A stretch of 64,000 nucleotides of DNA, taken from Ahrensia sp. (GTDB taxonomy: Bacteria > Pseudomonadota > Alphaproteobacteria > Rhizobiales > Rhizobiaceae). The notes beneath the pieces are model-generated. The model was not told the origin of the DNA, searched no databases, and saw nothing but the letters and a program-made list of their open reading frames with translations. Positions 1 through 16,056 of the stretch are shown here, piece after piece. The stretch's first letter is position 1; every line of letters begins with the position of its first letter. The stretch is taken from contig JAPPOQ010000005.1 of the NCBI GenBank assembly GCA_028817895.1, positions 1 to 64,000 on the forward strand, read 5' to 3'. The position numbers and the translations under genes were made by a program.

Positions 1-98
1 AATCCTCGCGCGATGCCCAGCATCGCTCTGCGGTATTCTCCTTGCCAGATCGAAAAATCCATCCCATCAACCTGCTTCAATCGGGGCGAGACTTGCTC
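1..98. repeat. Partial copy (right half) of a dispersed intergenic repeat
   Basis: Bases 1-98 match 41393-41490 with only six mismatches by my count. The segment contains a small palindrome (GCGATG CCC AGCATCGC-like, near base 10-26) and ends in the sequence that forms the right terminal inverted repeat of the full element at 41178-41493. The match stops abruptly at about base 98, where MaoC-like coding sequence begins. The copy continues off the left edge of the window, so its full length cannot be judged. Confidence 0.8.
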
Positions 99-100
99 AA

Positions 101-436
101 ACCGGCGACCGTTTCGAAATTCACATGGAACGCGATGCTGCTCGCAAGCATGGGTTTGGAGACCGCATTGCTCATGGTCTGCTGGTGCTCTCCATTGTTG
201 ATGGATTGAAGAACCAGACACCGGCGCAGTTCAAGGCGCGCGCATCACTCGGTTGGGACTGGACCTTCCGTGCCCCGGTTTTGGCCGGTGACACCATTGG
301 CGGCACGATCACGGTTCACCAAAAGCTTGAAACGCCAAAAGAAGATCAGGGGGTCCTCTTGCTCGATTTTGACATCAACAACCAGCGCGAAGAGACCGTT
401 CAGCAGGGAAGCAACAAGCTGCTTGTCTATCGATAA
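101..436 (+). pseudogene. MaoC-like dehydratase, 5'-truncated remnant
   Basis: The translated segment resembles the C-terminal two thirds of a MaoC-family (R)-specific enoyl-CoA hydratase. It starts at TGDRFEIH (the region of the family's Asp/His active site), followed by HGFGDRIAHG and a hot-dog-fold beta region to a TAA stop at 434-436. Full-length family members are about 145-160 residues; roughly the first 40-50 are missing here. Upstream the reading frame stays open but passes into the dispersed repeat (1-98), so the native N-terminus has been replaced. An ATG at 125 could start a 103-residue product, which would lack the front of the active-site segment. I read it as a gene remnant. If the real gene continues off the left edge, it would have to encode the repeat in frame, which seems unlikely. 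Confidence 0.6.
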
Positions 437-563
437 ATGTGACCGACCTCTGCCGCGATCAGGGCGGTGACGGCGAGATGGTTTGGCAGGCAAGGCTGGC
501 AGACAGTCCAATTCGAGGACTCCGGCATCAGTTTCGTGCTTGCGTGATCGTCGGATGTTAATT

Positions 564-579
564 AACTAATTGGTTACTT
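564..579. promoter_or_regulatory. Putative operator, upstream of aldo/keto reductase
   Basis: AACTAATTGGTTACTT is an imperfect 16-bp palindrome (AASTAAYYRRTTASTT). Related sequences occur at 10925-10940 (CACTAAATGGTTACTT), 7316-7331 (ending GTTAGTTACTT) and 9777-9795 (AGTAACC-GATC-GGTTAT). All four lie in promoter regions of one catabolic locus that also encodes a TetR regulator. Binding is inferred from recurrence and symmetry only. Confidence 0.55.
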
Positions 580-649
580 TGTTGTTCGGATCGGCCTGCC
601 TGCCTTGGGTGGCAACGCCACGCGAACATGCGTTGGAGGAGAACTCGAA

Positions 650-1468
650 ATGTCCATTTACTATACCAAGACCTTTCAGCGCGCTTTTGGGACATTTCCG
701 CTGAAGGGCGATGAGTTGCTGGCTTCCATTGAAGCAGCAGCGAAGACCGGGTTTCGCGCTTTTGACACAGCGCAAATGTATGAGAATGAAGCAACGACCG
801 GTGAAGGATTGGCCAATACCGGCATTCCACGAGACGAACTTTGCATCACCACAAAAGTCAACATTGAGAATTTCTCGAGCGAAGCTTTCCCTCCCAGTGT
901 GGAGAAAAGCCTTAAAGACCTGCGCATCGACTATGTCGACGTGCTTCTTCTGCATTGGCCACCCGCCGATGGTCATATCGCTCCTTCCTTACGGATGTTG
1001 GAAGATGCCCTGAAGCGCGGTCTGACACGCAATATTGGCATCTCCAATTACACGGTGGCGATGATGCGGGAGGCTGTTGAAATCGTTGATGCTCCGTTGG
1101 TGACAAACCAAGTTGAGTTTCACCCGCTGCTCAATCAGGACAGACTGATGGCTGGCGCAAATGAAGTTGGCATTCCGCTGTCTGCCTACTGTTCGGTTGC
1201 GCGTGGCGAGGTGTTCAAGGAGCCGACTTTCGCTGAAATCGGTGATACCTATGGAAAGAGTGCCGGGCAGGTCGTGCTGCGCTGGATCCTGCAAAAGGGT
1301 GTGAGCGTCAATGTGATGTCAACAAATCCGGCCAACATCCAATCGAATTTCGACATTATGGACTTTACGTTGAGCAATGTGGACATGGCTCGAATCGATG
1401 CCCTTACGCACCGCAACTATCGAATCGTCGGCAGGGATCTCGTACCCTTCGCGCCAGATTTCGACTGA
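650..1468 (+). CDS. Aldo/keto reductase
   Basis: A 272-residue NAD(P)H-dependent carbonyl reductase of the AKR superfamily (TIM barrel), close in length to the 2,5-diketo-D-gluconate reductase branch. The catalytic tetrad is visible: Asp39 and Tyr44 in FDTAQMYENE, Lys69 in TTKVN and His102 in LLLHWPP. The start at 650 is preceded by a GGAGGAG ribosome-binding site; an upstream in-frame TTG at 605 is less likely. An operator-like palindrome lies at 564-579. The 3' end overlaps the convergent zinc dehydrogenase gene by 52 bp. With the ABC importer and the dehydrogenase it probably interconverts a sugar, polyol or keto acid, but the substrate cannot be read from sequence. Confidence 0.9.
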   Translation: MSIYYTKTFQRAFGTFPLKGDELLASIEAAAKTGFRAFDTAQMYENEATTGEGLANTGIPRDELCITTKVNIENFSSEAFPPSVEKSLKDLRIDYVDVLLLHWPPADGHIAPSLRMLEDALKRGLTRNIGISNYTVAMMREAVEIVDAPLVTNQVEFHPLLNQDRLMAGANEVGIPLSAYCSVARGEVFKEPTFAEIGDTYGKSAGQVVLRWILQKGVSVNVMSTNPANIQSNFDIMDFTLSNVDMARIDALTHRNYRIVGRDLVPFAPDFD

Positions 1469-2514
1469 GCCGATCTGGCTCCAACCGACATCACGATCTG
1501 CGTTTTGAGATCGGCCGGTCGATCCGTGAACGTGTCGAAAGCCAGTTGAATGTCTTCCAATGCGTAGTCGGCGCCGGTGAATGGAGAAGTGTCGATCCGT
1601 CCATGGGTCAGCATGGTGAGAGAGTCATGCATATCCTCGCCCATGCCTGCCACTGATCCCTTGAGCGAATTCTCCCGAAGGATCGTGTCGAGAATATCAA
1701 CCTCCAAAAACTCCTGTGGCCCCGTCAAACCAAACACGGCAATGTGGCCTCCCTTGCGGATCAGCGTTTGGGCAAGTGCGTAGAGGTCTCGCTTGCCGAC
1801 ACTCTCAATAACGATGTCGGCACCTCGGCCATCGGTGTGTTCCAGCACCGCATCGCGAAGATTGCCAATATCCGAGACCGCAACATCCGCACCGCAGCGT
1901 CTCGCCATGGCCGCACGCTCTTGGCTGATGTCGGCAACGATGATCGGAGCCGCTCCAATTGTGCGCAAAAGCTGGACGTGAAGATTACCGATCGGCCCCG
2001 CACCCAGCACCACAACGGATTGAGCAAAAGTGACCTTGGCCTTTCTTGCAGCGCGGACAACGCATGCCAGCGGTTCGGTCAGCGCCAGCACTTGCGCGTC
2101 TACATGACTTGGAGCCAGAATGACCAAGTGCGCAGGCACGCTGATGTAGTCGGCAAAGCCACCATTAATGGTAATGCCAAATTGCTCCATCTGCGGGCAG
2201 TTGAGAATTTCGTTGCGCCGACACCAATAGCAACGGCCACAACCAATGTTGGTGTCGATCACCACCGGTTGGCCGATGGTCAAATCGGTTACATCGCGCC
2301 CAACTTCAGCAACCGTTCCGGTAAACTCGTGACCGGGAATCAAAGGCAGTTTGTCGGCCGAATAATGGCCATTGAAGATGTGGATGTCGGTGCCGCAAAT
2401 TCCGCAGCGTTTGATCTTGATGAGTGCTTCATTTGCGGCCGGCTCCGGTATGGGCAGTTTGCGCAGTTCAAACCGACCGGGTTCCACCAGGATCGCTGCA
2501 CGCATGTCTCCCAT
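1417..2514 (-). CDS. Zinc-dependent medium-chain alcohol/polyol dehydrogenase
   Basis: A 365-residue MDR-superfamily dehydrogenase of the sorbitol/threonine dehydrogenase type, oxidising a secondary alcohol with NAD(P). Catalytic zinc ligands are indicated by CGICGTD (Cys40) and GHE (His62/Glu63). The structural zinc loop has Cys92, Cys95, Cys98 and Cys106. The Rossmann motif VLGAGPIGN follows at about residue 170. The ATG at 2514 has a GGAGGG site just upstream; a GTG one codon earlier is also possible. It is the last gene of the transporter operon, 11 bp after the permease, so its substrate is probably the imported sugar, polyol or a derivative. The C-terminal tail (about 20 residues, rich in Ser/Arg) extends into the convergent AKR gene. 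Confidence 0.92.
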   Translation of the reverse strand: MGDMRAAILVEPGRFELRKLPIPEPAANEALIKIKRCGICGTDIHIFNGHYSADKLPLIPGHEFTGTVAEVGRDVTDLTIGQPVVIDTNIGCGRCYWCRRNEILNCPQMEQFGITINGGFADYISVPAHLVILAPSHVDAQVLALTEPLACVVRAARKAKVTFAQSVVVLGAGPIGNLHVQLLRTIGAAPIIVADISQERAAMARRCGADVAVSDIGNLRDAVLEHTDGRGADIVIESVGKRDLYALAQTLIRKGGHIAVFGLTGPQEFLEVDILDTILRENSLKGSVAGMGEDMHDSLTMLTHGRIDTSPFTGADYALEDIQLAFDTFTDRPADLKTQIVMSVGARSAQSKSGAKGTRSLPTIR

Positions 2515-2525
2515 CACACCCTCCG

Positions 2526-3467
2526 TTACTTGACGATCCGAAGCTTGGTGCGATCAATTGTCAGGCCGATCGCAATGATCAGGATAATGCCGAAAATCAT
2601 CTGCTGCTGCGTGGCTGCGACTTCGAGATAGACCATGGCCGCCCGGATCACCATGACGATCAGTGTTCCGATGGCTGTGTTAAGAACGCCTCCAACGCCG
2701 CCAGTCAAGGGCGTACCACCGACAAGCACCGCCACGATGGCAAGCAGTAGAAATCCGTTGGCCAAATTGGCGTCACCGCCTGAAAGCTTGACGGAGAAGA
2801 TGAGCCCGGCGATGCCCGCAAAACCGCCTGAAATGGCAAAAGCCAGAATCTTGATGCGGTTGACATTGAGCCCGGAAGCAACGGCTGCCAGTTCGCCGGC
2901 TCCCACCGCCTTCAGAGAACGCCCAAAGCTGGTTCGCGTCTGCAGAAACCAGGCGAGCAGAAGCAAAACCGCAGCAATGATCAGTTCATGGGGAACGCCT
3001 GCCGTGTTATCAAACATCCAGCCGAAGCTCGCATTGCGCAATTCGGCATCCATGTAGAGTGCGCGCTGGCCGGACAGGTATTTTGCCACAGAGAGGGCGA
3101 CAAAGCCCATCGCCAGGGTCGATACGAATGACGGTACGTAAAGCCGTGTCGTGGCATAGCCAGATATGGCACCGATCAGAAACCCGGCCGCAATACATAT
3201 GACCGCAACGGCGATGCCAAATTGGGCAAGGTAGACCGTGGCAATCACCGTAACCATGTTGGCCAGCTGCTGAACGGAAAGGTCAATGCCACCGATGTAG
3301 ATGGCGAATGTCATGCCCAGCGCCATGATAAACAGCGGCACAACATCTGCGGTCAGTGAAACCAGGCCAGCGGGGTTGAAGAAGCTGGGATTGGCGATGC
3401 CCACCAATGTACCAAGCACGATCAGAGTAATCCAGGGAAAGTGAGGTTTGATGCGTTCCATCGACAT
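2526..3467 (-). CDS. ABC sugar-type importer permease (RbsC family)
   Basis: An inner-membrane permease of the BPD_transp_2 family, 313 residues with about eight to ten hydrophobic segments. The conserved loop NPSFFNPAGL lies near the N-terminus and the family motif IGGIDLS at about residues 60-66. The ATG at 3467 has GGGAGG six bases upstream; an in-frame GTG at 3473 overlaps this site and is less likely. It lies 11 bp downstream of the ATPase gene and would pair with the second permease (4991-5956) as a heterodimer. This two-permease layout is seen in CUT2-class sugar importers. Confidence 0.93.
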   Translation of the reverse strand: MSMERIKPHFPWITLIVLGTLVGIANPSFFNPAGLVSLTADVVPLFIMALGMTFAIYIGGIDLSVQQLANMVTVIATVYLAQFGIAVAVICIAAGFLIGAISGYATTRLYVPSFVSTLAMGFVALSVAKYLSGQRALYMDAELRNASFGWMFDNTAGVPHELIIAAVLLLLAWFLQTRTSFGRSLKAVGAGELAAVASGLNVNRIKILAFAISGGFAGIAGLIFSVKLSGGDANLANGFLLLAIVAVLVGGTPLTGGVGGVLNTAIGTLIVMVIRAAMVYLEVAATQQQMIFGIILIIAIGLTIDRTKLRIVK

Positions 3468-3478
3468 TTTCACCTCCC

Positions 3479-4984
3479 TTAGATCATGTGATGCAAGAGA
3501 TCGTACAAGGACGGCTTCTGCGTCAGAAAACCATCAAAGCGCTGCTGAGCTACGCCATCTTTCAAAACGATGATGGTGTGTGCCAGGCCGATCGCTTCTT
3601 CAAGCGTGTCAGCAACCAAAATAATGCCGACGCCAGCGTCCGACATTTCGCGGATCATGTCATAGACATCTTCCTTCGCGCCGATATCGAGGCCGCGCGT
3701 CGGGTGATCCAGCAGCAGAATGTCGGACCCGCCGGAGCGCCATTTGGCCAGAACAACCTTTTGCTGATTGCCTCCAGACAACCCGCCGCAATCCTTGTGT
3801 TCCGAAGGGGTCTTTATCGCCAGACGTTCGATCCATTGGCGCGCTGTAGCCCGCTCCCCGGAAACATTCAGAACGCCTGCTCTCGAATAATTTCCAAGCT
3901 GACTGAGCGTCATGTTTTCAAAGACGTTCATTCCCGCGACAATGCCTTCAACCTTCCTTTCCCGTGGCGTGTAGCCAATGCCCGCAGCGACGGCGGCTTG
4001 CGGCGAGAAGCGAGCGACGGGTTTGCCCCGGACGCTCAGCTGTCCCGAAGTCGGATGCTCCATTCCAAAGATTGTGCGCAGAATGGCCTCACGACCGGAC
4101 CCCTCCGTGCCCACAAGGCAAAGCACTTCACCGGCATGCAAATCGAACGACACGTTCGAGAATCTGCCGCTGACCGAGACATCTTCAAGGCTGAGCAACG
4201 GTGCCTGATCGCTATAGGCTTTCTGCAACTGCTCGCGATAATATTCCTTGTCAATTTCGCGGCCGACCATCTTGTGCTGAATGGCATCAATGTCTGCCAC
4301 GTCGCGCGAAACGACATCCACCACTTCTCCGTCCTTCATCACATAGATGCGGTCAGAGATCTCCAGCACCTCCTCCATGCGATGCGAAACGAAGATGAAA
4401 GAGGCTCGATTGCGAAGATCGCGCACAATGCTGAAAAGAAGCTCCACCTCTTCGCGTGCTAGAACCGACGTGGGCTCATCAAGCAGGATTACGAGGTCGC
4501 CATCAACTCTCTCCTCCAACGTGAGCACCTTGGCAAGTTCAACCAATTGACGCTGGGCAAATGACAGGCTGGAGGTGATGGCTGACGGATCGATGGCCAG
4601 CTTGACCTTCGCGAGCTGGGCTTTGGCCGCCTCGGCCATCGCTTTCCAATCGATTATGCCATAGCGGACGAATTGCTGCTCGTAACCGAGGAAAATGTTT
4701 TCCATCACGGTGAGATTGGTGATCAGCGACTGTTCCTGAAAGACCATTCCGATGCCGTGATGCATCGCCTGGCGCGGATTGGAAAAACGAACCGTTTGGC
4801 CGTCGATCTCGATACTGCCTGAATCCGGCTGATAGGCACCGTAGATCACCTTCATCAAGGTTGATTTCCCAGCGCCATTTTCGCCCACCAGGCCGATGAT
4901 CTCACCGCGACCGATGTCGAGGTCGACCGCGCTGAGCGCCTTGACCCCGGGAAACACCTTGTCGATTTTTCTCAGTGCATACAT
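3479..4984 (-). CDS. ABC sugar-type importer ATPase, two NBDs (RbsA/MglA family)
   Basis: A 501-residue protein with two fused nucleotide-binding domains, the usual length for RbsA/XylG/MglA. The first domain has Walker A GENGAGKST (residues 34-42), an LSFAQRQ signature and Walker B LVILLDEPTS. The second has a degenerate P-loop (VGTEGSGRE), signature LSGGNQQKVV and Walker B ILLLDHPTRGLD. In this last motif His replaces the usual catalytic Glu, as is seen in the family. It energises import through the two adjacent permeases. The start lies six bases after the stop of the upstream permease gene, indicating co-transcription. Confidence 0.95.
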   Translation of the reverse strand: MYALRKIDKVFPGVKALSAVDLDIGRGEIIGLVGENGAGKSTLMKVIYGAYQPDSGSIEIDGQTVRFSNPRQAMHHGIGMVFQEQSLITNLTVMENIFLGYEQQFVRYGIIDWKAMAEAAKAQLAKVKLAIDPSAITSSLSFAQRQLVELAKVLTLEERVDGDLVILLDEPTSVLAREEVELLFSIVRDLRNRASFIFVSHRMEEVLEISDRIYVMKDGEVVDVVSRDVADIDAIQHKMVGREIDKEYYREQLQKAYSDQAPLLSLEDVSVSGRFSNVSFDLHAGEVLCLVGTEGSGREAILRTIFGMEHPTSGQLSVRGKPVARFSPQAAVAAGIGYTPRERKVEGIVAGMNVFENMTLSQLGNYSRAGVLNVSGERATARQWIERLAIKTPSEHKDCGGLSGGNQQKVVLAKWRSGGSDILLLDHPTRGLDIGAKEDVYDMIREMSDAGVGIILVADTLEEAIGLAHTIIVLKDGVAQQRFDGFLTQKPSLYDLLHHMI

Positions 4985-4990
4985 GTTCGG

Positions 4991-5956
4991 CTACTTCACG
5001 AAGGCGACAGTCTTGCGGTTTGTCGACAAAACAACCGCGGTAATGACCAAGATGCCGAGAACCGCATCTTGCACGAAGTTTGGTAGGCCGATCACGACCA
5101 TGCCATTGTTGATGACATTGACGATGAGTACGCCGACAAGCGTATTCCAAACGCCACCGATGCCTCCCCACAAGGCAGTACCGCCGACAACCACCGCCGT
5201 GATTGAGACAAACATGAAGTTGTTGCCGGTTGCCGTTTCCGCAATTCCGATCCGGCCCACCGCCAGCAATGCTCCGATGGCGTAGAACATTCCAGCAAGC
5301 ATGAAGGCCAAGGCGCGGACCCGACCGACATTGAGCCCGCTGGAGGTGGCCAGTTCCTCCCCGCCGCCTATGGCATAGAAATTTCGGCCAAGTTTGGTGT
5401 GGCTCTGAATGAACCAGGCCAGCACCAGACAGGCCAGTGCGACATAGACCATGATCGGGAAGTTCAAGAATCGAATGGTCAACAGCGACCGGAACAGCTC
5501 GTCCTCAACCCGAACCCTGTCTCCGCCCGTCAACAAGAGGGCAAAGCCCGTACCCACAAATCCGATCGCCAGCGAGCACATGAAGGACGGTATCTTGAAC
5601 CGCACATGGATGAGGCCGTTCAACAGGCCGACCGCCGCTCCGACCAATAAGGCGAGTGGCAGGGCCAGCCAGGCGAAACTGGCGAGTGTTCCGCCGAGCG
5701 CGATGAATGCGAACGCGAAGATCACGGCGCAGACCGACACTGTGCCTTCCATGGAAAGGTCGATCGAGCCCATGATGATGATGAAGGTGACACCGATGGC
5801 CACCATCAGTGCCGGGGTGGACGCGATGGCGATGCGCGCAGCATTTCGTACCGAAAAGAAACGCGGTTCGATGAGCGCAAAGAGGCAGATCAAAGCGAGC
5901 AAGACGAGCAACGGAGCCCATCGAATGAGATTGTCTCGCGTCAGCCAATTATTCAC
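4991..5956 (-). CDS. ABC sugar-type importer permease (RbsC family)
   Basis: The second permease of the importer, 321 residues with multiple hydrophobic helices and the family motif IMGSIDLSMEG at about residues 61-71. It begins with GTG at 5956, preceded by a G-rich ribosome-binding site. It follows the solute-binding gene after 112 bp, an interval that contains a strong hairpin (5991-6014). It differs clearly in sequence from the other permease, so the pair is an old heterodimer rather than a recent duplication. Confidence 0.93.
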   Translation of the reverse strand: MNNWLTRDNLIRWAPLLVLLALICLFALIEPRFFSVRNAARIAIASTPALMVAIGVTFIIIMGSIDLSMEGTVSVCAVIFAFAFIALGGTLASFAWLALPLALLVGAAVGLLNGLIHVRFKIPSFMCSLAIGFVGTGFALLLTGGDRVRVEDELFRSLLTIRFLNFPIMVYVALACLVLAWFIQSHTKLGRNFYAIGGGEELATSSGLNVGRVRALAFMLAGMFYAIGALLAVGRIGIAETATGNNFMFVSITAVVVGGTALWGGIGGVWNTLVGVLIVNVINNGMVVIGLPNFVQDAVLGILVITAVVLSTNRKTVAFVK

Positions 5957-5990
5957 GAACGCCCCCGAAGATACGCTTTGTCAAATGAAA

Positions 5991-6014
5991 CGGCGCGCAG
6001 GCTGCTGCGCGCCG
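5991..6014 (-). other. Intercistronic hairpin between binding-protein and permease genes
   Basis: CGGCGCGCAG-GCTG-CTGCGCGCCG forms a perfect 10-bp stem with a 4-base loop. It lacks a long T tract on either strand, so it is not a classical intrinsic terminator. Hairpins here commonly stabilise the upstream mRNA and raise binding-protein levels relative to the membrane components; that role is inferred. Confidence 0.6.
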
Positions 6015-6068
6015 CCTCCATATCAGCAGTCCAACCTTGTTGGCACCGCCGACCCCAGGGAGAACCTG

Positions 6069-7181
6069 CTACTTGTACTGGATCTGGCCGTTGGACGGTC
6101 CCCAGAAGTCCTTCCAGTCGTAAGTTGGAACGTTTTCGAGATACTTTGCCTTAAAGTCGGCAGCATCCTGCGGCGTGACCATGATGGTCGGGCCGTAGAA
6201 TTCGCGATGTTCGTTCGGTTCCTCAGACGGTTTGAACGCTCCCGTCGCCGCATGATAGGCCAAGGAGGCTGTAACGCCGCCACCCCAATGCGGGTTGGTG
6301 AAGACTGTTGCCAGGATGCGGCCTTCGCGCACCAGATCAACCGCCTGCGGGTTACCATCATAAGTGACAATCGGAATGTCCATTCCCTCGGCGCGCAGCG
6401 CCTCCAGAACACCGTAGCCAATCGTATCGTTGGCGCAGTGCACACCGCTGATCTCGTCACCATAGCGTGTGATGAAGGATGACATGATCTGATTGGCTTT
6501 CTGCGTATCCCAGTCAGCCGGCTGCGCATCAAGCAACTCCACATCCGGATAGTCCTTCAGTGCGTTTTTCAAACCCTGCAAGCGTTCGATGGCCGGGTTG
6601 TTGGAGGCGATGCCACCGAGATGGACGACGCCGCCCTTGCCACCGATGGCGTCCAGCAGGATGCGCGCCGTTTGCTCGGCGGGCTTTTCGTCAGACCACG
6701 TCATGTGAGAGACGTAGTTGTCACCAAAGTCCCATGGGTGGAGATCGTCCGTCTTGTTCCAGATGGTCGACACATAACCACCTGCGGCTGCCACGGCTTC
6801 GACCACCGGACGGCAGTTGGGTGCATCATTGGTGTCGATTGCGAGCGCGACTTTGCCACTCTCTTTTGCCATCAATGCCTTGACGTCAGCGAGTGACTTC
6901 TCAGAAGAGCCTTCATTGATCAGGTGGACAAGCGCATCTTTTGATTTCCCGAGGCTCTCCACAAAAGCCTCGCCGCCAGACACAATCTCGTTCCAATAAG
7001 GGTTGGTGCGGTTGCGATAGCTCCAAGCAATGGCAGGATCGTCATGGGTTGCCGCCTGAACCGGTGAAGGGCCGAACATCTTCAGCGCGGCTGCGCCGGA
7101 AATGCCATAGGCAGAGGCGAGTAGGAAGTTGCGTCTGCTGACCTTCTCCCGCTCGATGAAATCCTTGATGAAAGTAGACAT
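6069..7181 (-). CDS. ABC importer substrate-binding protein, Tat-exported
   Basis: A 370-residue periplasmic binding protein of the Peripla_BP_4 (ribose/galactose type) class and the first gene of the importer operon. The start at 7181 is chosen because a GGGAGG site precedes it and the next 35 residues form a twin-arginine signal: SRRNFL at residues 15-20, then a hydrophobic stretch and cleavage near VQA. A longer in-frame extension to 7301 would bury this signal. The mature region contains the fold's hinge segments (for example TNPYWNE near the start and CANDTIGYGVLEA later). Tat export of a sugar-binding protein is less common than Sec export. The ligand is unknown; context suggests a sugar, polyol or lactam-like compound. 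Confidence 0.92.
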   Translation of the reverse strand: MSTFIKDFIEREKVSRRNFLLASAYGISGAAALKMFGPSPVQAATHDDPAIAWSYRNRTNPYWNEIVSGGEAFVESLGKSKDALVHLINEGSSEKSLADVKALMAKESGKVALAIDTNDAPNCRPVVEAVAAAGGYVSTIWNKTDDLHPWDFGDNYVSHMTWSDEKPAEQTARILLDAIGGKGGVVHLGGIASNNPAIERLQGLKNALKDYPDVELLDAQPADWDTQKANQIMSSFITRYGDEISGVHCANDTIGYGVLEALRAEGMDIPIVTYDGNPQAVDLVREGRILATVFTNPHWGGGVTASLAYHAATGAFKPSEEPNEHREFYGPTIMVTPQDAADFKAKYLENVPTYDWKDFWGPSNGQIQYK

Positions 7182-7315
7182 GAACCGAAAACCTCCCTTG
7201 GTTGTCTCAGTCGTTGAGGCCTGAATCTTGCGGATTGGGAAGCGTCTTCCGCAACCGCCACCGTTGCACACTGTGCCGATGAGGAGCGCATTCAAGCGCA
7301 TGATGCTAATTAACG

Positions 7316-7331
7316 CAACAGTTAGTTACTT
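7316..7331. promoter_or_regulatory. Putative operator between binding-protein gene and tetR
   Basis: CAACAGTTAGTTACTT ends in the same GTTACTT half-site found at 564-579 and 10925-10940; the left half is weaker. It lies in the 252-bp divergent region between the importer operon (minus strand) and the TetR gene (plus strand), so one bound repressor could control both. Confidence 0.45.
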
Positions 7332-7433
7332 GTTTTGACGATGACTGACGGGCTTTCCCATCTGCGACCGCAATGGGTTTTGACGACGCGCGTCGCGTTT
7401 GCTTTATGAGGCGGTGAGGTTCAGGAGACTCTC

Positions 7434-8072
7434 GTGACTGCGCAGACACAAAAGCCAAAGATCAGGGATGCCGAAGCCACACGAGCCCGGATACTGGCGG
7501 CTGCAAAGGTGGAGTTCGCTCGCTTCGGATTGGGTGGCGCCAGAGTGGACACCATTGCGGAGAATTCCGGCGCCAATAAGCGGATGATCTATCACTATTT
7601 TGACAGCAAGGAGAACCTGTTTCGCGAAGTGCTGGAAGCCGCCTATGTTGATATTCGCTCAGCCGAGCAGGCGCTTGATCTCGACGCGCTCGCGCCGCGC
7701 GATGCGCTTGAAAAGTGGATCCGCTTCACCTGGGACTATTATCTCGCCAATCCGGAGTTCATCACTCTGGTGAACAGCGAAAATCTGCACAGGGCCAAGC
7801 ATCTTGAGGACAGTCAGGCCATCCGAGTGATATCACGTCGCTTCGTCGCCAGCACCAAGGACCTGCTGGATCGCGGGGTGGATGATGGTGTTTTCCGTAG
7901 TGACATTGACCCCGTTCAGCTCAACATCACAATCGCGGCGATTGGCTACTACTACTTGACCAATCGTTTCACCGGCTCGATCGTATTTGAGCGCGATTTC
8001 ATGACGCCGGAAGCGCTGGAAGAGCGATTGGCCTTCAACATTGAAACCATCATGCGGCTGGTTTGCGTTTAA
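7434..8072 (+). CDS. TetR-family transcriptional regulator
   Basis: A 212-residue repressor-type regulator. The N-terminal TetR helix-turn-helix spans about residues 10-60, with the recognition segment IAENSGANKRMIYHYF. The rest is an all-helical ligand-binding/dimerisation domain typical of the family. It starts with GTG at 7434 after a CAGGAGA site. It is divergent from the importer operon and convergent with the GMC gene, whose stop lies six bases away. The four related operator-like palindromes around this locus are its most likely targets, including its own promoter region. The inducer is unknown. Confidence 0.92.
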   Translation: MTAQTQKPKIRDAEATRARILAAAKVEFARFGLGGARVDTIAENSGANKRMIYHYFDSKENLFREVLEAAYVDIRSAEQALDLDALAPRDALEKWIRFTWDYYLANPEFITLVNSENLHRAKHLEDSQAIRVISRRFVASTKDLLDRGVDDGVFRSDIDPVQLNITIAAIGYYYLTNRFTGSIVFERDFMTPEALEERLAFNIETIMRLVCV

Positions 8073-8077
8073 GCGGA

Positions 8078-9715
8078 CTATTGCGGCCGACGCCCCAGCA
8101 GACTGCGGCCGCGAATCAGGTCGGCTCCTTTTTCCGCTATCATGATGGTGGGAGCATTGGTGTTGGATGAGTTGATACGCGGCATGACGGAACTGTCGCA
8201 CACCCGCAATCCTTCAAGACCATGAACCTTCAGGGTTGGGTCGACGACGGCCAACTCGTCTCTGCCCATTCGGCAGGTGCCGACCGGGTGATGCTGGGTC
8301 TTTGCATTCTCGCATCCATAGCGAAACAGCGCCTCCTCTCTTTGCACGCTGCTGCTGGGAAGGCGTTCGGCTTTCAAAAATGGTTCAAGCTGCGAATGTC
8401 GCATGATCTCGCGCGCCATTGCGAGCCCTGCAAAGTGACGACGTCTGTCTTCAGGTTCTGCCCAATAGTTGGGATCGATCAACGGTGCGTCCTTTGGGTC
8501 CGAGCTCTTCAGTCGCACCGTGCCGCGCGACTTCGGGCGCATATAGGCGACATTCAAGGTCACGCCGCCTTGTTTCATAGCGGCGACCCCGGCTTCAATT
8601 CCTGACCCTTGGCCAAAATGAAACTGAAGATCGGGACGCGATTGTTCTTCGTCGGAATACCAAAAGGCCCCGGTTTCAAAGAGGCTGGAGGCGGCAGGAC
8701 CGCTTTTCAACGTCATATATTGAAGTCCAGCTCTCGCGGCATGAAAGGGCTTGGCGAAATGGTCGTAACTGTGACGCCCCGTGCACTCGCTGATCACGAA
8801 AAGGTCGAGGTGATCGTGAAGATTTTCACCAACGCCAGGCAGGTCGTGCAATGGCCTGATCCCGACAGACTTCAGATGGTCGGGCGGGCCTATGCCCGAC
8901 AACATCAAAAGGCGAGGTGATCCGATGGCACCGCAGCTCACAATCGTTTCCTCATTGGCCTGCAGCACAGCCGGACGGCCATTCTCGATGACCTCGACCC
9001 CCACGACCCTTTGTCCCTCAAGCACGATCCTTGTGACAGGTACATCTGTTCTGACAGTCAGATTCCTGCGACCGCTGGCCGGCAGCAGAAAGTCTCGCGC
9101 GGTCGATGACCGACATGCGTCCCTTTGGGTGAGTTGGTAGAAGCCGCATCCGGCCTGCTCAGCTCCGTTGAAGTCTGCGTTGAACGGCATTCCCCAGGAT
9201 TGAGCAGCGCGAACAAATGCATAGGTGACCGGCAGGAGCGCCGTGGGTTGCGAGACGCCTAACGGTCCGCCCGCTCCGTGATAGGCGTTGAGGAAACTCT
9301 GATTGTCTTCTGATCGGCGGAAATAAGGTAGCACATCCGCATAGGACCAGCCTTGGCAGTCGAAATCTCTCACCCAACCGTCATAGTCATCGCGATGTCC
9401 GCGCGTGTAGATTTGTGCATTGATCGTTGAGCCACCACCCAGCACATTGGCCTGCGTGTACCATAGGACCCGATCCTGCATGTGCCTTTGCGGAACCGTT
9501 GACCAGCCCCAGCTGGCAATGCCTCTTGTCATTTTGGCGAAACCAGCAGGGATCGAAAACAGCCGTGATCTGTCTGGGCCGCCAGCTTCCAACAAAAGCA
9601 CGCTTGCTCGCTCATCTTCAGACAGGCGTGCAGCCAGAACACATCCGGCAGACCCACCGCCAACGATGATGTAGTCAAATTGTGCCGCCACGCGTCTCGC
9701 GATCTCTCCGCTCAC
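8078..9715 (-). CDS. GMC-family FAD-dependent oxidoreductase (choline dehydrogenase-like)
   Basis: A 545-residue flavoprotein that oxidises an alcohol or sugar. The N-terminal FAD-binding motif DYIIVGGGSAGCVLA is at about residues 14-28. GMC signature 1 covers the segment with VLGGGSTINAQIYTRG, and signature 2 is in GAIGSPRLLMLSGIGP. The C-terminal active-site region contains TQHHPVGTCRMG, where the family's catalytic His lies, and a second conserved segment SSNTNAPTIMIAEKGAD. It starts with GTG at 9715. It is convergent with tetR and divergent from the GlcG-like gene across a 90-bp region holding an operator-like palindrome. It probably performs an oxidation step of the same pathway as the neighbouring dehydrogenases. 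Confidence 0.93.
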   Translation of the reverse strand: MSGEIARRVAAQFDYIIVGGGSAGCVLAARLSEDERASVLLLEAGGPDRSRLFSIPAGFAKMTRGIASWGWSTVPQRHMQDRVLWYTQANVLGGGSTINAQIYTRGHRDDYDGWVRDFDCQGWSYADVLPYFRRSEDNQSFLNAYHGAGGPLGVSQPTALLPVTYAFVRAAQSWGMPFNADFNGAEQAGCGFYQLTQRDACRSSTARDFLLPASGRRNLTVRTDVPVTRIVLEGQRVVGVEVIENGRPAVLQANEETIVSCGAIGSPRLLMLSGIGPPDHLKSVGIRPLHDLPGVGENLHDHLDLFVISECTGRHSYDHFAKPFHAARAGLQYMTLKSGPAASSLFETGAFWYSDEEQSRPDLQFHFGQGSGIEAGVAAMKQGGVTLNVAYMRPKSRGTVRLKSSDPKDAPLIDPNYWAEPEDRRRHFAGLAMAREIMRHSQLEPFLKAERLPSSSVQREEALFRYGCENAKTQHHPVGTCRMGRDELAVVDPTLKVHGLEGLRVCDSSVMPRINSSNTNAPTIMIAEKGADLIRGRSLLGRRPQ

Positions 9716-9776
9716 GCCTTACTTGAGTTCTTTCATATCGACTTCATTCCCCCACCACCATATTTGTAACCGCACT

Positions 9777-9795
9777 AGTAACCGATCGGTTATCA
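9777..9795. promoter_or_regulatory. Putative operator between GMC gene and GlcG-like gene
   Basis: AGTAACCGATCGGTTATCA contains the near-perfect palindrome GTAACCGATCGGTTAT (9778-9793). A further GTAACCG half-site begins 12 bp upstream at 9766. The half-site GGTTA is shared with the other three operator candidates but the spacing between half-sites is larger here. Confidence 0.5.
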
Positions 9796-9805
9796 ATAGG
9801 AGAGG

Positions 9806-10240
9806 GTGGTGAAGTCAATTATTCGGCATGAAATAGCGGCAACAACCGCACGTGATATCGTTGCAGCGGCCGTTGATTATGCGGCTGGAAAGGGCTGGGC
9901 TGTTTGCGCTGCGATCTGCGATCCTCGTGGCCACATGGTGTCCTTGGCGCGCAGTGATGAGGTTATTGCACCAGCCATTCAGTTTGCCATCGACAAGGCC
10001 TACACGTCGGGCACGCTGGGAAAGTCGACTCAGGCATTTTTTGGTAGAGCAACCGCGCGGCCAGCTCTCGCCATGGGGCTTGCCAATCGCGAACGAATCC
10101 TGGTGTTTCCTGGTGGGATTCCTATCATCAGCGCAGAATTGTGTCTTGGCGGGCTGGGCGTTTCCGGCGCTCAGGACGAGGAAGATGTCGAATGCGCAAG
10201 GACAGTGCTGGAACGGTTCGGTTTCGACGTGACCGAGTGA
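9806..10240 (+). CDS. GlcG/HbpS-like heme-degrading-fold protein (DUF336)
   Basis: A 144-residue single-domain protein of the Haem_degrading (GlcG/HbpS, DUF336) family. Family features are the N-terminal helix with AAAVDYAAGKGWAVCAAICDPRGH, read here as VDYAAGKGWAV then DPRGHMVSL, and the glycine-rich LVFPGGIPI and GLGVSGA segments. Two GTG codons (9806 and 9809) follow an AGGAGAG site; 9809 has the better spacing. Members are often found next to oxidoreductases and dehydratases in catabolic clusters, with roles that remain poorly defined. Here it is transcribed away from the GMC gene and is probably co-regulated through the 9777-9795 palindrome. Confidence 0.82.
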   Translation: MVKSIIRHEIAATTARDIVAAAVDYAAGKGWAVCAAICDPRGHMVSLARSDEVIAPAIQFAIDKAYTSGTLGKSTQAFFGRATARPALAMGLANRERILVFPGGIPIISAELCLGGLGVSGAQDEEDVECARTVLERFGFDVTE

Positions 10241-10276
10241 GTCTTCCGGCATACTTGTGCGGATGAAGGGCGGCCT

Positions 10277-10846
10277 TCAGTTCCGCCTATCGAGCGCGTG
10301 GCGCCAATCATTCCAGCCACCATCAACGGATGAAGGTGCGGCATGCCAATGCGGCATGGGTTCACCCGTCGCGGGGTCCTTCGCCGGGATCGGCAACATC
10401 ATGATCCGCTTGCATGCGCGCTTATAGTCCTCTTCGGACAAAAACTCCTCCTGGATGTCATCCCAATCGCGTCCATCGGGGTAACCGCCGCACATGTGGA
10501 TGTCCTCGGCCATTGATGTCATCTCATGCGACACACCGGCCGGCATTACGATCACATCTCCGGCCTCAATGCGAACCTTGGTCCAGCCGCCTTCGCCCAC
10601 AGACAACGAAAACTCCATCCAACCCTGTGCACATCCAAGGCACTCATGCGTCGTCGAGTGAAAATGCGCATACTCATAAATGCCCGGATAATCCCAATTG
10701 TTTGACCAGCCATTGTTGCGAAAATGCTCCTTGACCCTGTCTGCGCCACCACCCGGAATGGCGTTTCGATGAACGAGCAGCGGGAAACGACTGTTGGGAA
10801 TCATCCCCTGTGGTGCCGAGGAATAGGACTCTGTGACTATGGACAT
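10277..10846 (-). CDS. Cupin-domain protein
   Basis: A 189-residue protein with a single cupin barrel. Motif 1 is visible as HFHSTTHECLG (two His and Glu as metal ligands) and motif 2 as GDVIVMPAGVSH (third His), at about residues 61-112. It resembles the YjlB-like cupins of unknown function. It starts with ATG at 10846 after AGGGAAAA. Its promoter region holds the operator-like site 10925-10940, placing it in the presumed TetR regulon. It could be an isomerase, epimerase or dioxygenase acting on a pathway intermediate; sequence alone does not decide. A small TGAAGG/CCTTCA hairpin lies at its 3' end (10264-10279). Confidence 0.8.
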   Translation of the reverse strand: MSIVTESYSSAPQGMIPNSRFPLLVHRNAIPGGGADRVKEHFRNNGWSNNWDYPGIYEYAHFHSTTHECLGCAQGWMEFSLSVGEGGWTKVRIEAGDVIVMPAGVSHEMTSMAEDIHMCGGYPDGRDWDDIQEEFLSEEDYKRACKRIMMLPIPAKDPATGEPMPHWHAAPSSVDGGWNDWRHALDRRN

Positions 10847-10924
10847 GGTAATTTTCCCTTCAAATCAGGACCAATCGATCTCGTCCAGCGGCTTTGCAAC
10901 CGCCGAGATCGGATTTTCTCAAGT

Positions 10925-10940
10925 CACTAAATGGTTACTT
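10925..10940. promoter_or_regulatory. Putative operator upstream of cupin gene
   Basis: CACTAAATGGTTACTT shares TAA at the same offset and the whole GGTTACTT right half with the site at 564-579, and is followed by the same kind of T-rich sequence. It lies about 80 bp upstream of the cupin start codon. Confidence 0.5.
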
Positions 10941-11040
10941 ATTTTGTTTCAAGGCCGCGAATGATCCCGCGGAGATTGGCGGCCACGCTGTCCACGATTC
11001 TTTATTTGACCCGACAGACCCTCGGACTTGGAAAAGCCGT

Positions 11041-11070
11041 TTGACAAAGCGCGGCCAATCATAGCCTTAT
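11041..11070 (+). promoter_or_regulatory. Candidate promoter for the hyuA operon
   Basis: A perfect TTGACA -35 hexamer at 11041-11046 is followed after 17-18 bases by a weak -10 (TAGCCT or CCTTAT). The start codon is about 140 bases downstream. The weak -10 keeps confidence low. Confidence 0.3.
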
Positions 11071-11210
11071 GGTCACGGCAGGCTGCCAGTCCGGGTCCGT
11101 GAATCATGACCTTGCAAGTTTGTTTCAAAAGATATGATCGTCGCGCCACGGGGTGCGACCTGGTTGTTTAGCGGTTCGCTTTACACTCGCTCACCGCATC
11201 GGAGGATGCG

Positions 11211-13343
11211 GTGGAAAGTCAGTTCAGACGCCCAAGCGCCAGCATGCCTCACTCAAAGAACTTACGCCTTGCCACGGATATTGGCGGCACTTTCACGGAT
11301 ACCGTTCTGGTTCAGGACGAGACGATCCTTGCCTCCGCGAAAACCCTGACGACCCAAAAGGACCCGGCTAAAGCCGCATTGCAGGGCGCCGCGATCGTCC
11401 TTAAGCAGTCGGGTCACAGCCTTGGTGACGTTTCCGGCTTCATTCACGGCACAACGCTGGCGACGAATGCCCTGATTGAAAGGCGAGGCGCGAAGGTTGG
11501 CACCATAACGACACACGGTTTTCGTGACATATTGGAGATCGCCTATGAGCGGCGCTACTCGCAATATGACATCGGCTTGGTGAAGCCCGATCTTCTTGTA
11601 GAGCGCGACCAGGCATTCACGGTGCTTGAGCGTATGTCGGTTGACGGCAAGCCGTTGATCGAGCTGACCGAGAAAGCCGTTGAGGAGCTCCTTGCGCAGT
11701 TGGAGAAAATCGACGCGCAGACCATCGCGATTTGCCTGCTGCACGCCTATGCCAATCCGACCCATGAGCGACATCTGCGCGATGTTCTCAAGTCAAGGCG
11801 TCCTGATCTCGACGTCTCTCTTTCCTGCGAAGTCAGCCCGGAAGCGCGGGAGTTCGATCGGCTCTGCACGACGGTTGCCAACGCCTATATCCAACCTCTC
11901 ATGAGCGGTTATCTGCGCAGCTTCGCAGAGCGATTCGCGAAAGAAGGCTTGATCTGTCCTATTCTCATGATGACGGCCGGAGGCGGAATGTGCACCATTG
12001 AAGCGGCCTGCCGTTTCCCGATCCGGCTGGTCGAGTCGGGACCGGCAGGAGGTGCCATACTCGCTGCCCGCATCGCCGAACAGGCGGGGCTGGATCAGGT
12101 TCTCTCATTTGATGTCGGTGGCACGACTGCCAAGCTTTGTCTTATCGACAAGGCGACCCCGCAAACTGCAAGACAGTTCGAGATCGCGCGTGCTGAGCGC
12201 TTCATCAAGGGATCGGGAATGCCGGTGCGCATTCCAGTAATCGATATGATCGAGATCGGTGCAGGCGGAGGGTCGATTGCAACGGTGGATCGCCTGGGCC
12301 GGTTGAAGGTTGGTCCGCAAAGCGCCGGTTCTGATCCCGGTCCGGCTGCCTTTTTGCAAGGCGGGCAGGAACCCACCGTCACCGACGCCGACATCGCCCT
12401 TGGATACATTGTGCCGGATTCGTTTGCTGAAGGCCGCGTTGCGGTGGATGCAGATGCTGCACGCAACATACTGTCAGAGAAAATCGGATCCGCACTTGCT
12501 CTCGATGCCACTACCGCCGCGGACGGTGTCAGCCGCATGGTTGATGAAAGCATGGCAAGTGCCGGGCGAATGCACGCAGTCGAATCGGGTAAAGACCTTG
12601 GCGATCGCACAATGATCGCCTTTGGCGGCAACGGCCCCTTGCACGCCACTCGCGTTGCTCGATCAGCAGGCGTGTCCACGATCCTTATTCCCACGAGTCC
12701 CGGGGTCGGTTCCGCCGTAGGGTTTCTGCATGCGCCGGTATCCTTTGAGATCGTGCGGTCTCATTATTCGCTTCTGGAGACTGTGGACTTCAACTCCCTC
12801 AACGCTTTGCTGGACAGCATGGCGAAAGAGGCCAGCGACATCGTCGTTCAAGCCGCTCTGTCGGCGAAGCTGGTTGAGCATCGAACCGCCTTCATGCGCT
12901 ATAGCGGGCAGGGGCACGAGATCGAAATCGAGCTGCCAAATCGCGCTCTCAAACAAGACGATATCGGTGCGCTCACAAACGCGTTTGAGGCCGAATACAG
13001 CAAACAGTTTTCGCGCCCCGTGCCGGGAATGGAAATCGAAATTCTCAACTGGGGTGTTCGCATCGCGACGGCGAAACAGGTGCCACCGAGACCAGGAAAG
13101 ATTTCCACCACGCGTCCCGTCGCATTTGAGCGGTCACAGGCGATCCACTGCGACCTGGAGGGGCGACCCAGAAAGGCGGCGTTGGTGCCACGCGCGGAGC
13201 TGAGACCAGGCGACACTCTGGAAGGACCGGCGCTGATCGTCGAACCTCAGACAACGACGCTGGTCTCAGCGGATTTTAGAGCTCATGTCGACGCTATGGG
13301 CAATCTTGTTCTTACCCAAAAGAGCAAGGGAGCGAAGCGGTGA
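11211..13343 (+). CDS. hyuA: Hydantoinase/oxoprolinase subunit A (HyuA)
   Basis: A 710-residue ATP-dependent amidohydrolase subunit of the N-methylhydantoinase A/5-oxoprolinase/acetone carboxylase alpha family. The ASKHA-fold phosphate motif TDIGGTFTD lies at about residues 22-30 and the second ATPase lobe has SFDVGGTTAKL. The metal/active-site segment DMIEIGAGGGSIA is at about residue 345. With HyuB it would hydrolyse a cyclic amide such as a hydantoin or 5-oxoproline analogue using ATP. The GTG at 11211 follows GGAGG at the right distance; an ATG at 11244 (MPHSKNL) is an alternative. Its stop overlaps the HyuB start by 4 bp (GTGA), the first link of a four-gene overlapping operon. Substrate is not determined; acetone carboxylase is unlikely because no gamma subunit is present. 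Confidence 0.93.
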   Translation: MESQFRRPSASMPHSKNLRLATDIGGTFTDTVLVQDETILASAKTLTTQKDPAKAALQGAAIVLKQSGHSLGDVSGFIHGTTLATNALIERRGAKVGTITTHGFRDILEIAYERRYSQYDIGLVKPDLLVERDQAFTVLERMSVDGKPLIELTEKAVEELLAQLEKIDAQTIAICLLHAYANPTHERHLRDVLKSRRPDLDVSLSCEVSPEAREFDRLCTTVANAYIQPLMSGYLRSFAERFAKEGLICPILMMTAGGGMCTIEAACRFPIRLVESGPAGGAILAARIAEQAGLDQVLSFDVGGTTAKLCLIDKATPQTARQFEIARAERFIKGSGMPVRIPVIDMIEIGAGGGSIATVDRLGRLKVGPQSAGSDPGPAAFLQGGQEPTVTDADIALGYIVPDSFAEGRVAVDADAARNILSEKIGSALALDATTAADGVSRMVDESMASAGRMHAVESGKDLGDRTMIAFGGNGPLHATRVARSAGVSTILIPTSPGVGSAVGFLHAPVSFEIVRSHYSLLETVDFNSLNALLDSMAKEASDIVVQAALSAKLVEHRTAFMRYSGQGHEIEIELPNRALKQDDIGALTNAFEAEYSKQFSRPVPGMEIEILNWGVRIATAKQVPPRPGKISTTRPVAFERSQAIHCDLEGRPRKAALVPRAELRPGDTLEGPALIVEPQTTTLVSADFRAHVDAMGNLVLTQKSKGAKR

Positions 13344-14992: not shown

Positions 14993-16056
14993 TCCGACCG
15001 CTCCCTCATATCGAAGCCATGCGGCCCTACGCGCTTGCTGACCCGCTTGAACCGGGAACGATTTCACTTGCACAAAATGAGAGCGCCTTCCCACCCAGTC
15101 CGCGCGCTGTCGCCGCCGGCGAACAGGCCGTCAAGCAATCCCTCTTATACCCCGATCCTGACTGGACGGAATTGCGGCAAGCAATCAGCGATGTGCGCGG
15201 TCTTCCGGTCGAGACGCTTCTGTGCGGTACCGGTTCCATGGAGCTCATCGGCGCCGTCATCGGCGCCCATGCGGGTCCCGGCAATACCGTGGTCGCAACG
15301 CAATATGCCTACGCCTTCGTCGCCACGGCCTGCACGCAGATAGGTGCTGCCTATGCGCAAGCGCAAGAACGCGATCTCACGGTCAACGTCGATTCCATTC
15401 TGGCGAGACTGACGGCTGACACGCGTCTTGTCTTCGTCGCCAATCCGGGAAACCCCACAGGAACCGCAATACCCAACACCGAAATTGTCCGACTGAGGCA
15501 CGCTCTGCCCGAGCACGTGCTCCTGATTGTCGATCAGGCTTACGCCGAGTTTCTCGACGAAGAACAACCGCCGACTGAAGTCTTCTCCTTGGTCGATCAG
15601 GGCAACACAGCCGTCATTCGCACCTTCTCGAAGGCCTATGCATTGGCGGGCGCGCGTGTCGGCTGGGGTTGCTTCCCACGGCAGACAGCACAGCATCTTC
15701 GCAAAGTGCTCAATCCAAACAATGTCAGCGTGGTTTCACAGGCCATGGCGACCGCCGCCATGCGTGACCAGAAGCATATGCGACAGATCGTGAAGAAAAC
15801 TGCGCAAATCCGGGATGGTTTTGCACAGACCGCAAGGAAACTTGGCATCACGGTTCGCAACAGCAACACCAATTTCCTGCTGTTGCAGTTTGACGATCCC
15901 GCCACAGCTGATCGTGTTGATCAAGCGCTTCGACAAAACGGGCTGCTGCTGCGGGCAATGGGCGGCTACGGCCTGCCGGATTGTCTGCGCATCACTATAG
16001 GTGAACAAAGCATCATGAACCGGGTGTCCGATGTTTTGAAGGAAGCCATGCGATGA
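14989..16056 (+). CDS. HisC-like class I/II aminotransferase
   Basis: A 355-residue PLP-dependent fold-type I aminotransferase closest in form to histidinol-phosphate aminotransferase. The segment NPGNPTG, the PLP-binding Asp in VDQAYAEF and the Schiff-base lysine in TFSKAYALAGARVGWG are visible. The start overlaps the hyuB stop by 4 bp and its stop overlaps the next gene by 4 bp. In an operon with a hydantoinase and a racemase-like enzyme, a housekeeping histidine role is unlikely. Transamination of the amino acid released by ring opening is more plausible. The exact substrate is unknown. Confidence 0.87.
   Translation: MIRPLPHIEAMRPYALADPLEPGTISLAQNESAFPPSPRAVAAGEQAVKQSLLYPDPDWTELRQAISDVRGLPVETLLCGTGSMELIGAVIGAHAGPGNTVVATQYAYAFVATACTQIGAAYAQAQERDLTVNVDSILARLTADTRLVFVANPGNPTGTAIPNTEIVRLRHALPEHVLLIVDQAYAEFLDEEQPPTEVFSLVDQGNTAVIRTFSKAYALAGARVGWGCFPRQTAQHLRKVLNPNNVSVVSQAMATAAMRDQKHMRQIVKKTAQIRDGFAQTARKLGITVRNSNTNFLLLQFDDPATADRVDQALRQNGLLLRAMGGYGLPDCLRITIGEQSIMNRVSDVLKEAMR

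Follow-up and report, generated by a model that had tools for sequence, protein, structure and literature searches.

A stretch of 64,000 nucleotides from Ahrensia sp. (GCA_028817895.1, contig JAPPOQ010000005.1, positions 1 to 64,000; hereafter the window) carries a catabolic locus around a gene for a TetR-family regulator, with related palindromes in several of its promoter regions. The question raised by this locus is whether the palindromes are operators of that one regulator and, if so, which genes and which pathway it governs. The original prediction answered with a local regulon under a single inducer, joining an ATP-binding cassette (ABC) importer, an aldo/keto reductase (AKR), a dehydrogenase, a GMC oxidoreductase, a GlcG-like protein and a cupin. 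Our analysis indicates that the TetR regulon is real, conserved and larger than that. With a probability of roughly 0.85, judged from sequence, it is repressed by TetR through AAGTAACYNNNNRGTTACTT sites, the repression being relieved by a small molecule of the pathway.

Operator sites in the window

All four palindromes originally described (564–579, 7316–7331, 9777–9795 and 10925–10940) are present, and one 20-bp palindrome, AAGTAACYNNNNRGTTACTT, fits them all at a single spacing when its centre is moved 2 bp to the left of the earlier register. The sites, with scores from the matrix described below, are:

560–579, no strand: operator S1, AATTAACTAATTGGTTACTT, 70 bp from the start codon of the DkgB-like AKR gene; 30.1 bits, the highest in the window
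7312–7331, no strand: operator S2, AACGCAACAGTTAGTTACTT, common to tetR, at 102 bp, and to the gene of the binding protein, at 130 bp; 20.8 bits, third-best in the window
9776–9795, no strand: operator S3, TAGTAACCGATCGGTTATCA, between the genes for the GMC oxidoreductase (60 bp) and the GlcG-like protein (10 bp); 5.8 bits
10921–10940, no strand: operator S4, AAGTCACTAAATGGTTACTT, 74 bp from the cupin gene, with the divergent hydantoinase-like gene at 270 bp; 29.4 bits, second-best in the window

Among the ten symmetric base pairs, eight are complementary in S1, four in S2, eight in S3 and seven in S4, which makes S2 the least symmetric. The consensus first proposed, AASTAAYYRRTTASTT, has seven matches in the window at up to three mismatches, six of them at the four sites, compared with a mean of 1.29 and a maximum of 4 in 100 shuffles. 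It was said to fit the best two sites; the match is exact only at 564–579, and 10925–10940 has two mismatches. Position 7316–7331 itself is absent from the matches at three mismatches, the register 4 bp to its left being among them. The wider spacing attributed to 9777–9795 was a register error, as the spacing of S3 is that of the other three sites. S3 is an exact match to TAACYRATYRGTTA, for which only three exact places exist in the 3.54-Mb genome (S1, S3 and C19:99614, on another contig); by the dinucleotides of the window 0.014 would be expected, the pattern itself having been drawn from S1 and S3.

A symmetric matrix was trained on the promoters of relatives. These were the best 80 of 422 TetR relatives (68–78% identity; titles mostly of Hyphomicrobiales and Rhodobacterales) together with one locus of the same genus (L130), giving 81 loci. 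In each relative the 450 bp upstream of tetR were searched, and the best site was taken if it had no more than two mismatches to either of two patterns; such a site is present in 73 of the 81, and the matrix was built from 29 distinct tetR-upstream sequences of other genomes, none from the window. As both patterns were composed with knowledge of the window and the relatives, this step is training and not a test. When the window was scanned with the matrix, S1, S4 and S2 were the three best places in the 64 kb, followed by a register overlapping S2 (14.7 bits) and by an unrelated place (10.0 bits). Random sequence of the same dinucleotide make-up reaches 12 bits at 3.5 places per Mb, and its best score in 40 × 64 kb was 18.6 bits. 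The earlier impression that the motif does not occur elsewhere in the window is borne out by the trained matrix, with which only S1, S4, S2 and the register overlapping S2 reach 12 bits.

Conservation at the promoters of relatives

The regulon was tested at the other genes of the relatives, where sites of at least 12 bits were sought in the 330-bp start region of each gene. For these counts one locus (L073) was replaced by its longer copy (L133), and matches covering less than 40% of the query or below 38% identity were excluded, as were genes whose 330-bp stretch ran off the locus. Sites were found in the start regions of the CoA-transferase (9 of 10 loci; CoA, coenzyme A), the DkgB-like AKR (7 of 7 relatives), the second AKR (5 of 5), the GMC oxidoreductase (8 of 10 relatives) and the acyl-CoA dehydrogenase (6 of 11, one of which, in L107, is the training site upstream of tetR). 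The aldehyde dehydrogenase has a site in 12 of 61 cases and in 9 of the 23 where no pathway gene lies directly upstream; the 3-ketoacyl reductase has one in 1 of 16, and a binding protein of the type found on contig C43 (see below) in 1 of 1. At the training promoter itself, a site was scored for 71 of 71 binding-protein genes and for 75 of 82 tetR genes. In random windows placed over 700 bp away from every pathway start, and not limited to intergenic DNA, sites occurred in 5 of 1,552 cases. Genes downstream in operons (two permeases, ATPase, zinc dehydrogenase, DUF993, TIM barrel and enoyl-CoA hydratase) had none in 300 start regions, nor did the cupin genes of relatives, which there follow the zinc dehydrogenase (0 of 15), or the genes for Dabb (0 of 4), MaoC (0 of 2), glycerate kinase (0 of 2) and HyuB (0 of 1). 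The counts are not fully independent, since the CoA-transferase and AKR genes share one divergent promoter in seven loci, some second-AKR and dehydrogenase genes also share promoters, and three of the GMC loci are from Shinella. Outside the tetR promoters, 52 further sites of at least 14 bits lie in 1.18 Mb of the relatives.

The same operator therefore stands at several operons and is conserved at related promoters, weakly so for the GlcG-like gene and without support in relatives for the second GMC gene. S3 is supported despite its low score, because related GMC promoters carry the operator. We establish directly where the sites lie, that they are conserved, and that in some relatives the same genes are linked to tetR. 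Membership of the importer, dehydrogenase, AKR, GMC oxidoreductase and cupin, as originally proposed, is strongly supported by the conserved sites; the word 'local' was too narrow, given the sites on contigs C19 and C43, and a single inducer is something that we infer.

Sites on other contigs of the genome

In the whole genome, AAGTAACYNNNNRGTTAYTT occurs at up to two mismatches in six places (S1, S4, C19:99611, C19:99735, C43:74333 and C14:19843), five of which are promoters of regulon genes. Many copies at unrelated places, or absence of the sites from relatives, had been named in advance as evidence against the regulon; the five promoters among the six strongest places, and the conservation described above, are the opposite of both. 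C14:19843 lies inside an open reading frame (ORF) and was rejected as a site. Thirteen more places appear at three mismatches, including S3, C43:74166 and S2 in the register 4 bp to the left. With up to three mismatches allowed, the motif is rarer in the genome than its reversed control (17 and 13 matches versus 43 and 44), and for this reason only strong sites carry weight. C1:177191 and C1:177297 were likewise rejected, both lying inside an ORF of contig C1 in a stretch without a place of at least 10 bits by the matrix; two other stretches of the genome, C1:64000–76000 and C35:154000–165000, also have no such place.

The regulon thus gains four sites beyond those first described, a pair on C19 and a pair on C43, at genes that adjoin tetR in some relatives. 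The C19 pair lies between the acyl-CoA dehydrogenase gene and the second AKR gene, and the C43 pair between the second GMC gene and a series encoding a CoA-transferase, a hydratase, a reductase, a DUF993 protein and a TIM-barrel protein. Contig C19 very probably continues into the window, the two contig ends overlapping by 55 identical bases. A 52-base stretch at the window start (within 1–55) is a repeat with 21 copies in the genome at up to two mismatches, and the first gene of the window would extend across the junction:

2–436, + strand: MaoC-like hydratase gene, C-terminal part (PF01575); the N-terminal part is at the end of contig C19

Read apart, the two parts correspond, by eye, to both ends of the Sagittula sp. 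P11 MaoC protein, and a repeat element, within which the assembly broke off, seems to interrupt the gene.

Proposed regulator and probable mode of control

The proposed repressor is encoded in the middle of the window locus:

7434–8072, + strand: TetR-family regulator (PF00440 and PF17938 above cut-off)

It matches the N-terminal TetR helix-turn-helix domain PF00440 with 46.6 bits (cut-off 24) and the helical ligand-binding C-terminal domain PF17938 with 138.9 bits (cut-off 26.2), and its AlphaFold2 model is helical with a mean predicted local distance difference test (pLDDT) score of 92.7. Residues 48–56 of the recognition helix (NKRMIYHYF) are invariant across 82 members of the clade, except I52 at 0.98. 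A putative palindromic operator in its own promoter region, as is characteristic of the family, is present as S2 and is conserved in the 73 relatives named above.

What we infer from this arrangement is that TetR binds the sites, that it represses and does not activate, that one metabolite of the pathway is the inducer, and in which order the enzymes act. A TetR dimer would bind the AAGTAACYNNNNRGTTACTT sites and repress its own gene and the importer with the zinc dehydrogenase, the two AKRs, the two GMC alcohol oxidoreductases and the GlcG-like and cupin proteins, as well as a CoA-dependent route (CoA-transferase, acyl-CoA dehydrogenase, hydratases, 3-ketoacyl reductase, DUF993 protein and TIM-barrel isomerase), until a small molecule of the pathway releases it from the operators. 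Among the 74 relatives with a tetR-upstream site of at least 12 bits, 54 have an exact CTTGAC on the importer strand at a distance of 16 bp upstream of the operator, and 69 have the hexamer with up to one mismatch 5–21 bp upstream of it, compared with 6.0 expected by shuffling. The operator in relatives therefore sits at the expected −10 of the importer promoter, a region that the bound repressor would cover, which makes repression relieved by a pathway metabolite the most likely mode of control. A sigma-70 promoter scan of positions 1–12000 of the window returned 2 promoters, with 5.4 expected.

Alternative explanations

Another possible explanation is that TetR controls only its own promoter and the importer through S2, and that S1, S3 and S4 are bound by another regulator, for example a distant TetR. 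S2 is indeed systematically different: the tetR/importer operator is asymmetric in 71 of the 74 relatives, with one TAAC-type and one GCAC-type half, whereas of the 52 other sites 38 are TAAC-type on both sides, eight have one unclassified half and only six are of the mixed form. The low matrix score of S3 points the same way, as do operator-like sequences in genomes that lack this clade and next to more distant TetRs. Yet the other promoters are recovered by a matrix whose training set was the tetR promoter only, the regulon genes adjoin tetR in some relatives, and of the four matches to TetR in its own genome, itself included, the two others listed have E 5e-6 and 1.3e-5. We therefore consider control by a second regulator unlikely; the asymmetric tetR/importer site may be an autoregulatory operator of lower strength or different shape. 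An activating role of TetR at some promoters, alone or beside repression, is quite unlikely. Some sites lie 70–130 bp from start codons, a position open to an activator, but the operator of the importer promoter in relatives covers the expected −10, downstream of CTTGAC, S3 is only 10 bp from the GlcG-like start codon, and most members of the TetR family are repressors. Chance matches in AT-rich DNA between genes could account for S3, which would not stand out by the matrix alone, and the greater frequency of the reversed control at three mismatches could be cited in their favour; for S1, S2 and S4 they are already contradicted by the matrix ranks and by the conservation at related promoters, none of the 100 shuffles reaches the match count of AASTAAYYRRTTASTT, and chance as the origin of the palindromes is hardly credible.

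Repression by this one TetR at all the promoters is thus the reading that we prefer, and several points weigh against it. The counts at tetR and the importer are not independent, because the training patterns were written with the window and relatives in view, and 8 of the 81 relatives have no tetR-upstream site at up to two mismatches (two of the eight have one at three). S3 reaches 5.8 bits in a window with 17 places of at least 5 bits, overlapping registers included, and the matrix alone would have missed it. Only 2 of 18 GlcG-like start regions in relatives have a site, so that membership of this gene rests on the shared S3 promoter; the second GMC gene has a site in 1 of 12, and that one is tetR-upstream, and the MalE-type binding proteins in 0 of 8. 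The inclusion of coding DNA among the random control windows belongs here as well. The importer promoter of the window itself has, by eye, no good CTTGAC at the expected distance, so the −10 argument rests on the relatives in its case. Finally, the operator sequence is not private to the clade: among 241 genomes sampled from the class, five of which, including that of the window, have a TetR at E ≤ 1e-60, a site at up to one mismatch is also present in 42 of the 236 without a close TetR, and 28 distant-TetR loci (97 kb) contain four sites of at least 14 bits, a density similar to that in the relatives, all four being in two loci (L004 and L009) with TetRs of 45% and 39% identity.

In three (G106, G167 and G216) of the four other genomes with a close TetR (50–57% identity) a site at up to one mismatch lies 42–201 bp past the 3′ end of the tetR match, and the fourth (G160) has no site at that threshold. 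G167 retains acyl-CoA dehydrogenase and reductase genes beside the site, G216 has other neighbours, and at the edge of the G106 stretch there is a fragment of DUF993. The 51%-identical TetR of G216 (L140) has sites at 3188 and 3904, on both sides of its gene, among different neighbours, and this operator type may therefore serve several regulons. It seems older and wider than the regulon described here.

Genes of the window locus

The remaining genes around the four sites are:

650–1468, + strand: aldo/keto reductase, DkgB-like (PF00248; NF008377 below its cut-off)
1417–2517, − strand: zinc alcohol/polyol dehydrogenase, last gene of the importer operon (PF08240 and PF00107)
2526–3473, − strand: ABC permease (PF02653)
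3479–4984, − strand: ABC double ATPase, AraG/RbsA-like (PF00005 in two stretches; best NCBIfam models below cut-off)
4991–5956, − strand: ABC permease (PF02653)
6069–7181, − strand: RbsB/CUT2-like sugar-type substrate-binding protein, first gene of the importer operon (PF13407)
8078–9715, − strand: GMC oxidoreductase, choline-dehydrogenase-like (PF00732 and PF05199; below the NCBIfam choline dehydrogenase cut-offs)
9806–10240, + strand: GlcG/HbpS-like protein (PF03928)
10277–10846, − strand: cupin-fold protein (only weak PF03079 and PF07883 matches, below cut-off)

The closest solved chain to the binding protein is 2rjo_A (E 1.2e-75), an entry displayed without ligand. Relatives of the zinc dehydrogenase are present in 59 of the 81 loci and those of the cupin, at 62–90% identity, in 14, in 13 of which the gene adjoins that for the zinc dehydrogenase. 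Control of the hydantoinase-like genes (11211–14992) by S4 was rejected, their start codon being 270 bp away and such genes occurring in 1 of the 81 relatives' loci. The hydantoinase-like gene pair and an aminotransferase-like gene (11211–16056; named by eye) stand beside the cupin gene, outside the regulon by present evidence.

The pathway and its cluster in relatives

The regulon and its cluster comprise two types of ABC importer, GMC alcohol oxidoreductases, AKRs, a zinc dehydrogenase, a CoA-transferase, an acyl-CoA dehydrogenase, hydratases, a 3-ketoacyl reductase, a DUF993 protein and a TIM-barrel isomerase, joined in relatives by an aldehyde dehydrogenase and in some of them also by a glycerate kinase and electron-transfer flavoproteins. 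For the cluster aldehyde dehydrogenase, the best match in the Ahrensia genome has only 40% identity. Within about 8 kb of tetR, the 81 loci contain DUF993 (10), the acyl-CoA dehydrogenase (9), the second GMC gene (9), the CoA-transferase (7) and the second AKR (3), counts of C19- and C43-type neighbours that cover the available stretch, as many of the loci end early. Most of the cluster lies in one place on annotated plasmids of Rhizobium sp. 32-5/1, Sagittula sp. P11, Rhizobium sp. TH2 and Sinorhizobium meliloti ml47 (pSymA), and tblastn detected the same genes on pSymA of S. meliloti 1021, where sites stand at the second-AKR, CoA-transferase/AKR and tetR/importer promoters, with one more at 18257. 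Since it is plasmid-borne in S. meliloti, Rhizobium and Sagittula strains, the route may travel as a unit.

As substrate, an alcohol resembling a sugar or polyol is probable; its oxidation would yield an acid that is linked to CoA for activation and then degraded in a manner resembling beta-oxidation. The GMC enzyme, with the aldehyde dehydrogenase in many relatives, would make the acid and the CoA-transferase would activate it; the acyl-CoA dehydrogenase, hydratases and reductase would then oxidise the activated acid, and the DUF993 protein would cleave the product. We tentatively propose, as a possibility short of even odds, that the regulon serves a so far undescribed route, dependent on CoA, for a compound resembling a sugar or polyol, with DUF993 cleaving the product and TetR sensing an intermediate of the route. 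The solved relative of DUF993, 4dnh, is labelled 'Uncharacterized protein'.

A glycerate kinase gene is located inside the cluster of Rhizobium sp. 32-5/1 (L133, 10878–12143) and of S. meliloti ml47 (L137, 5329–6588), and glycerate may be one product of the pathway. On the 49-kb plasmid of Sagittula sp. P11 (L134, 1–1004) a gene annotated as degradative HMG-CoA reductase adjoins the cluster; it is possibly a hint of a branched-chain substrate, or an unrelated gene.

Comparison with known systems

BetI, KstR and PsrA each represent one repressor that acts through one palindrome on several dispersed operons of one pathway and on its own gene, and the regulon described here resembles these dispersed catabolic TetR regulons. 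The window TetR is far below the cut-offs of the BetI and Vibrio PsrA NCBIfam models. BetI was considered on account of the choline-dehydrogenase-like GMC enzymes; TIGR03384 gave 32.0 of 201.3 bits, and the two GMC enzymes scored 502.2 and 497.6 of 732.1 bits against the betA model. KstR was compared by structure only (KstR2 chains, 18–20% identity). RutR, the Escherichia coli repressor of pyrimidine use, is the best NCBIfam model by E-value and has the same overall fold (Foldseek template modelling (TM) score 0.65–0.76 by query length, 24–27% identity over the RutR chains listed), yet the scores of 50.9 of 368 bits for TIGR03613 and 46.7 of 230 bits for NF011584 place the window TetR outside this equivalog. 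RutR controls a catabolic operon and releases DNA on binding its substrate; its gene set is different, and its operator, TTGACCANNTGGTCAA, is unlike the window palindrome. SCO4942 and SCO4008 of Streptomyces coelicolor (2pz9, 2d6y) are among the best structural matches, at 28–31% identity.

Literature searches on DUF993, the gene set, S. meliloti locus names (guessed from map position), the motif halves and the Pfam domain found, within partial listings, no paper on the regulon, and the text of PMC11387232 contains no name starting SMa13 or SMa14. The kind of system is familiar and the pathway is not.

Significance

With the operators described here, a large and unassigned gene set that is widely spread in rhizobia and roseobacters becomes one defined regulon with a likely switch. 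The list of operators shows which genes belong together, including those on other contigs, and DUF993 can be placed in a pathway. The switch is expected to react to the substrate or to an intermediate, so that a reporter under the operator in S. meliloti could reveal what the substrate is.

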